This document shows positions 19,905-21,622 of a stretch of DNA of 64,000 nucleotides, piece after piece. A program made the position numbers and the translations under genes. The notes below the pieces were generated by a model. It was not told the DNA's origin and ran no database searches. It worked only from the letters and a program-made list of their open reading frames with translations. This DNA comes from Chryseobacterium lacus. GTDB lineage: Bacteria > Bacteroidota > Bacteroidia > Flavobacteriales > Weeksellaceae. The DNA lies in the NCBI RefSeq assembly GCF_003336205.1, contig NZ_QPIE01000002.1, positions 186,001 through 250,000 of the forward strand, in the 5' to 3' direction. The number at the start of each line of letters is the position of its first letter. Within the stretch, counting starts at the first letter, position 1.

Positions 19905-20783
19905 ATGGCAATTAGAAGAAATTCCGGTAACAGAAGACCATCGTCTTCTTCCGGCAGAAGAACTTCCATGAGAGGTTCAGGATCACGAAACTCAGGCAGA
20001 AACCGTTCGTATCGGGATGATGAGGACGACAGAGATTACTATGATGATGACTATAACAACCGTTATTATGACGATGAGTATGATGATGAAGACTACGACG
20101 ATTATGACGACGATGACTGGGATGATGATGAATACGATAATGAGTGGGACGATGACGAGGATTGGGACGATGACGAGGATTGGGATGATGACGAGGACTG
20201 GGACGAGGACGATTGGGACGATGACGACGATGACGACGATGATGACAGACGAAGAGGCGGAAGAAGAAGCTCCCGCTCCTCCTCAGCAAGAAGTTCAGGT
20301 TCAAACAGATCAAGAAGTCGCTCCGGATCTGGCAGAGGTTCATCGGCAGATGATCAGCCACGAGACGACCAGGGCAGATTTGTTTCCAGATCCGGAAGAG
20401 GTTCTTCTGGCAGAGGTTCATCCGGTCGTGGAAGATCAGGGTCATCTTCCGGAAGAAGTTCAGGATCATCCGGCAGAGGCAGATCATCCGGCAGAGGCAG
20501 ATCAGCAGATGATCAACCAAAAGACAGCCGGGGAAGGTTCATCTCGGAAGGCCGCGGTTCATCGCGTGACAGCGGTTCCCGCTCCGGAAGGAGTTCGTCC
20601 GGTAACAGAGGAAACTCCGGTTCATCTTCAAGACGAGGCAGCTCATCCGGCAGAAATTCAGGTGGATCACGCAGATCTTCACAAAGAGGAAATCCGTATC
20701 ATGATGAAAGGGGCAGATTCACCTCCGAAGACAATGCAAGACGCCGGGGCGGATTCGGAAGCAGAAACAGACGTAATAACTAA
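19905..20783 (+). CDS. Low-complexity acidic/Arg-Gly-Ser-rich protein
   Basis: 292 residues, almost wholly low complexity. Four zones: a basic R/S/G-rich start (1-36); a hyper-acidic Asp/Glu/Tyr/Trp block (~37-114) with a tandem DWDDDE repeat, ending in ten Asp; a long Arg/Ser/Gly-rich part (~115-265) full of GRGSS and RSSG units; and a short basic tail. Three spaced motifs recur: DDQGRFVS, DSRGRFIS and DERGRFTS. The opposite charges suggest a polyampholyte able to bind nucleic acid or phase-separate. The place before a YciE-like gene recalls the KGG-motif protein of yciG-yciF-yciE. Function unknown; frame chosen because it has a normal ATG, stop and neighbour. Confidence 0.8.
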   Translation: MAIRRNSGNRRPSSSSGRRTSMRGSGSRNSGRNRSYRDDEDDRDYYDDDYNNRYYDDEYDDEDYDDYDDDDWDDDEYDNEWDDDEDWDDDEDWDDDEDWDEDDWDDDDDDDDDDRRRGGRRSSRSSSARSSGSNRSRSRSGSGRGSSADDQPRDDQGRFVSRSGRGSSGRGSSGRGRSGSSSGRSSGSSGRGRSSGRGRSADDQPKDSRGRFISEGRGSSRDSGSRSGRSSSGNRGNSGSSSRRGSSSGRNSGGSRRSSQRGNPYHDERGRFTSEDNARRRGGFGSRNRRNN

Positions 20784-20801
20784 TCTATTCTATCACCCAC
20801 A

Positions 20802-20827
20802 ACTGGCTGCGTAATGCAGCCGGTTTT
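20802..20827 (+). terminator. Terminator/attenuator between the RGS-rich and DUF892 genes
   Basis: Nine-bp stem ACTGGCTGC / GCAGCCGGT (one G-T pair), 5-nt loop, then TTTTT. It ends 15 nt before the DUF892 start codon, too close for a separate downstream promoter, so read-through or an internal promoter is needed for that gene. Confidence 0.8.
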
Positions 20828-20842
20828 TAAAAATCAAAAAAT

Positions 20843-21562
20843 ATGGATACCAATAAAAATCCCGCTGCCACAGCTAAAACTGCTGAGAAAACCCCAAAAG
20901 GTTCGGTTTCAAAAGAAAAAGAAGTGAACATGAACAACAATTCGGAAGCCAAAAGACAGACGTTGGAAACGAATGGAAACTCCGAAAATAAAGAGAATCC
21001 AAATCAAAAACCATCAGAAACTGAACGGGACGGACCGTTGTTCAAATTTTTCACCGACGCACTAAAGGATGTTCTGTACGCAGAGAAACACATCCTGGAA
21101 GCCTTGCCCAAAATGCAGAAAGCAGCGACTACTCATGAACTTCAGGAGGCTTTTGAAGACCATTATCTTCTTACCCAAAAGCACATCTCCCGCCTGGAAA
21201 GAGTTTTCAAACTCATCGGTGAAGAACCTGAAGAAAAAAAATGTGAAGCCATTATCGGCATCGTTAAAGAAGGCGAATCCGTTATTGAAAACACGGAAGA
21301 AGGAAGCATGACCCGGGATGCCGCTCTTATTATTGCTGCACAGAAAGTAGAACATTATGAGATAGCAACCTACGGCGGACTGGCCGCTTTGGCCGAAACA
21401 CTGGAATTATACGAGGCTTCCGATCTGCTTCATACGACATTGCAAGAAGAAGAAGAAACCGATGAAGACCTGACGGACATTGCAGAAAGCTTTATTAATT
21501 TTGCAGCAAAAGACGACGAAGAGGAAGACGACAATAAGGACGATGCTCTCGGTTTCTGGTAA
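20843..21562 (+). CDS. DUF892 (YciE-like) ferritin-fold stress protein
   Basis: 239 residues. Residues 1-70 are a disordered K/E/N-rich extension; an ATG about 30 codons in is an alternative start. From ~72 the DUF892 domain begins (FKFFTDALKDVLYAEKHILEALPKMQKAATTHELQEAFEDHYLLTQKHISRLERVF), a ferritin-like four-helix bundle with E-x6-H and H-x-x-R pairs, then KVEHYEIATYGGLAALAETL. A very acidic tail (DDEEEDDNKDD) follows. E. coli YciE/YciF respond to osmotic and stationary-phase stress; the exact role is unknown. The upstream low-complexity gene is a likely functional partner. Confidence 0.9.
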   Translation: MDTNKNPAATAKTAEKTPKGSVSKEKEVNMNNNSEAKRQTLETNGNSENKENPNQKPSETERDGPLFKFFTDALKDVLYAEKHILEALPKMQKAATTHELQEAFEDHYLLTQKHISRLERVFKLIGEEPEEKKCEAIIGIVKEGESVIENTEEGSMTRDAALIIAAQKVEHYEIATYGGLAALAETLELYEASDLLHTTLQEEEETDEDLTDIAESFINFAAKDDEEEDDNKDDALGFW

Positions 21563-21595: not shown

Positions 21596-21622
21596 GCCGG
21601 AAAATCTTCCGGCTGTTTTTTT
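21596..21622 (+). terminator. Terminator of the DUF892 gene
   Basis: GCCGGA / TCCGGC hairpin with a short AT loop followed by a T-rich run. Confidence 0.85.

Follow-up and report, generated by a model that had tools for sequence, protein, structure and literature searches.

A gene pair encoding a long disordered protein with balanced charges, directly followed by a ferritin-like protein of the DUF892 family, is kept in many Bacteroidota. Judging by its sequence, the locus found in Chryseobacterium lacus is a pair of the YciG-YciF type whose first member has become much larger, i.e. a widespread variant of a known pair. The disordered gene is under purifying selection, and its sequence drifts while the opposite charges stay jointly constrained. 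A preliminary description of this DNA had proposed an undescribed stress-related system, and this proposal is partly supported: the core of the idea holds, with a YciF-like partner and a widespread pair, and our literature search returned no published account of a charge-balanced disordered and ferritin-like stress pair, but the pair is an enlarged form of one already known.

The gene pair and its products

The window, i.e. the whole 64,000-nucleotide stretch that was analyzed, comes from a 2.4-Mb genome and contains the two genes on the same strand, the disordered gene directly 5' of the YciF-like gene and 59 nt apart from it according to the window ORFs, which is the arrangement of a YciG-YciF pair. 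The features are as follows, all on the + strand.

19905..20783, +: CDS, 292-aa disordered diblock polyampholyte in the YciG position (ORF, composition, dN/dS, AlphaFold2)
19905..20015, +: basic N-terminal cap, aa 1-37, net charge +11 (MAIRRNSGNRRPSSS; RNSG-type start common to relatives)
20016..20246, +: acidic Asp/Tyr/Trp block, aa 38-114, net charge -55
20247..20780, +: Arg/Gly/Ser block, aa 115-292, net charge +32
20355..20387, +: RDxxGRF-type motif 1 (QPRDDQGRFVS)
20514..20546, +: RDxxGRF-type motif 2 (QPKDSRGRFIS)
20694..20726, +: RDxxGRF-type motif 3 (PYHDERGRFTS)
20739..20765, +: C-terminal motif RRRGGFGSR, kept in 61/70 relatives vs 0.5% of shuffles
20799..20829, +: intergenic hairpin then T run, terminator- or attenuator-like, position kept in relatives
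20843..21562, +: CDS, 239-aa YciF-like DUF892 protein (PF05974 match, structure comparison)
21596..21622, +: terminator-like hairpin and T run 3' of the DUF892 gene

The ORFs, the composition and the PF05974 match all confirm what had been read from the letters, namely an acidic Asp/Tyr/Trp and Arg/Gly/Ser protein encoded ahead of a DUF892 protein. The 292 residues include 64 Ser, 58 Asp, 57 Arg and 42 Gly, with a single Lys and no Cys, and their charge patterning lies 30 s.d. away from shuffles. The disorder expected in the preliminary description is borne out by AlphaFold2 on the single sequence, which predicts no fold (mean pLDDT 42.5, no helix). The protein thus combines disorder, from AlphaFold2, with segregated charges, from the shuffles, as condensate proteins do. 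Eukaryotic Arg/Gly-rich, charge-block condensate proteins share its Arg-rich low complexity, segregated charge and Tyr residues, a likeness of composition. The same features recall Rho of Bacteroides thetaiotaomicron, which has a condensing disordered region (PMC13269538, PMC10284900). Profile searches of the window protein gave no match in Pfam or NCBIfam, and no known nucleic-acid-binding family in Pfam, NCBIfam or PHROGs; PHROGs and NCBIfam returned nothing useful as a source of a family. A weak PHROGs match of an RDxxGRF peptide to a portal protein (E 0.003) suggests that such motifs may occur in phage proteins too.

The second protein matches PF05974 with 175.3 bits (E 1.2e-51, cut-off 23.7). 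It had been taken for a YciE-like protein, which proved wrong: its closest structures are those of YciF (2GS4 and 4ERU, 43-44% identity, TM 0.91-0.94 normalised to YciF), whereas YciE (3OGH) shares only 18-20% identity with it. In the predicted model, a ferritin-like core at about aa 65-225 (pLDDT 93-98 per block) follows an N-terminal extension of about 60 aa modeled with low confidence, and the C-terminus is acidic. The putative metal-site residues E81, H107, E143, E170, H171, E173 and E203 are invariant or nearly so. Dps and bacterioferritin, which are weaker structural matches, share the ferritin-like four-helix fold, but the partner belongs to DUF892/YciF, outside the cage-forming families; to our knowledge, DUF892 proteins form no cage.

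The neighbors of the window pair are housekeeping genes, tsaD and rsmE upstream and trmD, with a thioredoxin-like gene, on the other strand; no catalase gene lies beside the pair. A +1-frame ORF of 265 aa overlaps the disordered-protein gene and is probably a by-product of biased codons, since conservation sits in the named frame.

Conservation of the pair and relation to YciG

Loci were gathered with the window DUF892 protein as query and supplemented with further stretches. They contain 74 DUF892 genes with such a protein encoded directly upstream, at a median gap of 73 nt, and 78 without. The 74 pairs, in many genera, span Weeksellaceae and Chitinophagaceae and, with few exceptions, cluster in a single region of the DUF892 tree, so that a conserved pair with fixed gene order, which had been suggested as a check in Bacteroidota, does exist, and the pair is not confined to this strain. 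On a DUF892 tree of 150 rows, 10 changes explain the paired/unpaired label, where shuffled labels require about 50; a single clade (support 100/98) takes in most of the unpaired rows. The low-scoring DUF892 paralogues sampled in Weeksellaceae are all unpaired, several of them sharing a genome with a paired copy. In a phylum-wide sample, the newly fetched loci that score above 200 bits are paired with a single exception, and those below 200 bits are unpaired. The pair is therefore specific to one DUF892 subfamily. Paired DUF892 proteins are also more acidic than unpaired ones (-22 vs -13), and the residue adjoining the conserved Glu203 is Glu in 66 and Lys in 2 paired rows, vs Lys in 53 and Glu in 12 unpaired rows. 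This Glu in place of Lys is a marker of the subfamily, although the split may reflect shared descent rather than function.

Most exceptions in the paired group retain traces of the disordered gene, which is frameshifted, gapped or cut down to roughly 40 codons. Its reduction to about 40 codons beside a retained DUF892 gene, in a few Chryseobacterium, indicates that the large form is not indispensable. The hairpin is kept together with the DUF892 gene in Chryseobacterium loci with a short remnant (L040, L041, L061, L148, L029).

In enterobacteria, yciGFE likewise has the gene of a disordered KGG-family protein immediately ahead of that of a YciF-type DUF892 protein. The gene order in E. coli is yciG-yciF-yciE (NC_000913.3), but no yciE-type gene follows the window pair. 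YciG itself has 59 aa, carries two KGG motifs and lacks charge blocks, whereas the proteins described here are mostly 200-430 aa long and join an acidic block to an Arg block, their charges being balanced. According to PMC7161692, KGG proteins are disordered and under the control of RpoS. PF10685, the stress-induced bacterial acidophilic repeat motif of KGG proteins such as YmdF, PA2146 and SEN1538, is also matched above its cut-off in several relatives of the window protein: three of the five tested at the same position score 29.6, 39.6 and 100.7 bits, the other two lacking a match, and those that pass carry up to five motifs. By pattern, a KGG-like motif is present in 53/71 relatives and RDxxGRF in 47/71, neither of them appearing in shuffles, and some Chitinophagaceae versions start with a KGG motif. 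The window protein differs in having no PF10685 match, nor is there one in the window genome. The motifs in its relatives nevertheless mark it as an enlarged YciG-type partner, in line with the preliminary placement of a large disordered protein in the YciG position, and KGG is one among several motifs that replace each other along a long disordered chain.

In several Chryseobacterium, Crp/Fnr-type regulators precede the pair, and it is followed in turn by a long KatE-type catalase, a Zn-dependent alcohol dehydrogenase, CinA and a short-chain dehydrogenase; a catalase gene is also found near by in the yciGFE-katN locus of Salmonella. The neighborhood in Chryseobacterium supports a role in general or oxidative stress, which lends weight to the stress link proposed earlier, but these neighbors are absent from the window locus.

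Selection, charge balance and RNA elements

Across 12 close orthologue pairs, the dN/dS of the disordered gene is about 0.05-0.2 and most changes hit the third position of a codon; the adjoining DUF892 gene shows much the same pattern. Purifying selection acts on this reading frame, which evolves like a translated gene, contrary to the possibility, raised earlier, that the first gene is untranslated.

To compare charges, positive and negative residues were counted independently in each protein; the charge of the acidic block against the remaining net charge was dropped as a test, because the second quantity includes the first. The two counts are correlated with r = 0.93 (raw), 0.92 with independent contrasts and 0.80 once length is removed, whereas negatives against Gly or Ser give -0.20 and -0.16 after length is removed. 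The positive/negative ratio is 0.81 +/- 0.07, where random re-pairing would spread 0.26. Charge segregation exceeds 3 s.d. of shuffles in 65/70 relatives; the other 5/70 keep the composition and show no segregation. The opposite charges singled out in the preliminary description are thus under joint constraint, and a balance kept over evolution suggests a stress system that forms droplets or coats nucleic acid.

A stem-loop followed by T residues separates the genes in 61/71 pairs; typically, about 10 nt lie between the stop codon and the stem-loop, and about 27 nt remain ahead of the following start. Hairpin sequences are entirely different from group to group. Nevertheless, within 18 Chryseobacterium-type hairpins 95% of cells pair and 8/14 base pairs show two-sided changes, a level of compensation reached in 0/500 shuffles. 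With the same test, control co-directional gaps of 40-130 nt contain a hairpin in at most 19/93 cases vs 20/24 pairs, and by eye most of these 19 sit 3' of DUF892 genes. Since terminator-like hairpins also occur in 6/18 other short co-directional gaps of the window, a single hairpin is unremarkable and only its conservation matters. Little room is left after the hairpin for a promoter and a leader, so partial termination would be the simplest reading. E. coli also has a hairpin between yciG and yciF, but as it is not followed by a clear T run, an attenuator common to E. coli and these pairs was not accepted.

Many Chryseobacterium-type relatives carry another hairpin in the 5' leader, about 50 nt before the start codon (examples at L018:387-422 on the + strand, L021:3098-3133 on the - strand, and L152). 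Its stem is variable and compensating, and its loop is almost fixed as AAUACUAGUCA, or AAUGCUAGCUA in some genera. No Rfam family matches this element. A covariance model gives one strong match, at this locus only, in 5/7 Chryseobacterium-group (g21) genomes, the other two having divergent forms that the model misses; the Chryseobacterium element was sought in the window and not found.

Possible functions of the pair

From these features we infer condensation, protein interaction and iron handling. In the reading that we prefer, and to which we give about even credence, the disordered protein would be a scaffold with balanced charges that is linked to stress and produced in surplus; by condensing, it would concentrate a ferritin-like iron/peroxide protein or hold it in position. 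A small disordered KGG protein of the YciG-YciF kind would have been enlarged into a charge-balanced diblock polyampholyte. The intergenic hairpin might let only part of the transcripts through, and such partial read-through would leave the disordered protein in excess over the DUF892 protein. Attraction between the acidic and Arg blocks, with Arg-Tyr contacts, could yield a salt-sensitive condensate, with or without nucleic acid as a support. In it, the Arg block would hold the strongly acidic DUF892 protein with its ferritin-like metal site. There it might bind and oxidize iron and consume peroxide near DNA or RNA under stress. A bolder version, which seems to us a long shot, is a cage-free ferritin system: the condensate of the diblock protein, kept in excess by the conserved attenuator hairpin, would replace the shell and, under stress, gather a YciF-like iron oxidase together with its iron close to nucleic acid.

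The same charge balance would suit condensation and autoinhibition alike. In the latter case, DNA or RNA could be bound directly by the Arg/Gly/Ser block and its KGG or RDxxGRF motifs, with the acidic block as an intramolecular mimic that blocks binding until stress; the DUF892 protein would protect the coated nucleic acid in the manner of Dps, and a droplet would be unnecessary. An Arg-rich block almost devoid of Lys (R 2665 vs K 162 in 71 relatives) and the ferritin/Dps-like fold of the partner are consistent with this model, which we consider unlikely, though less so than the other alternatives: no known nucleic-acid-binding family was matched in the disordered protein, and net charge is negative in every tabulated relative, so free binding of nucleic acid would need some trigger.

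A simpler role, as a LEA- or hydrophilin-like bulk protectant against drying or osmotic stress with a merely co-expressed DUF892 gene, would agree with the extreme hydrophilicity, the near absence of Cys, the full disorder and the Chryseobacterium stress neighborhood. Segregated blocks, charge balance, conserved mini-motifs (KGG, RDxxGRF, GFG[SG]R) and pairing with one DUF892 subfamily would all be superfluous for bulk protection, and make this role improbable in our view. Slightly more doubtful still is a model centered on iron, in which the disordered protein binds iron with its Asp/Tyr block, seeds a ferric mineral for the DUF892 protein, in place of a ferritin shell, and attaches to the acidic DUF892 protein through the Arg block. 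In E. coli, DUF892 proteins sequester iron: they lowered the level of free iron and raised the magnetic retention of the bacteria (PMC5126674). The acidic block of most relatives has 8 or more Tyr, and its net charge lies at about -30 to -55; metal binding by this block is putative, however, and mineral seeding does not call for a tight charge balance.

The long partner, its clear blocks, a measurable charge constraint and the restriction to one DUF892 subfamily make the action of KGG and DUF892 proteins, both common among stress proteins, testable. If the protein condenses with its partner, as in the scaffold reading, the pair would be a natural bacterial case of evolution holding a charge pattern rather than a sequence, and would offer a mechanistic handle on YciG.

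Further short motifs, GHPF[FY]GNQYT and NPGRP[KR]GS, are repeated in the Arg block of relatives L003, L008 and L004, and in L004 and L007 this block is a series of seven to eight near-identical repeats around NPGRPKGSRNGDGRSS. The window genome also has a second DUF892 gene, of the unpaired type, which adjoins a DJ-1/PfpI gene (G000:C26, locus L116:3366-3899).
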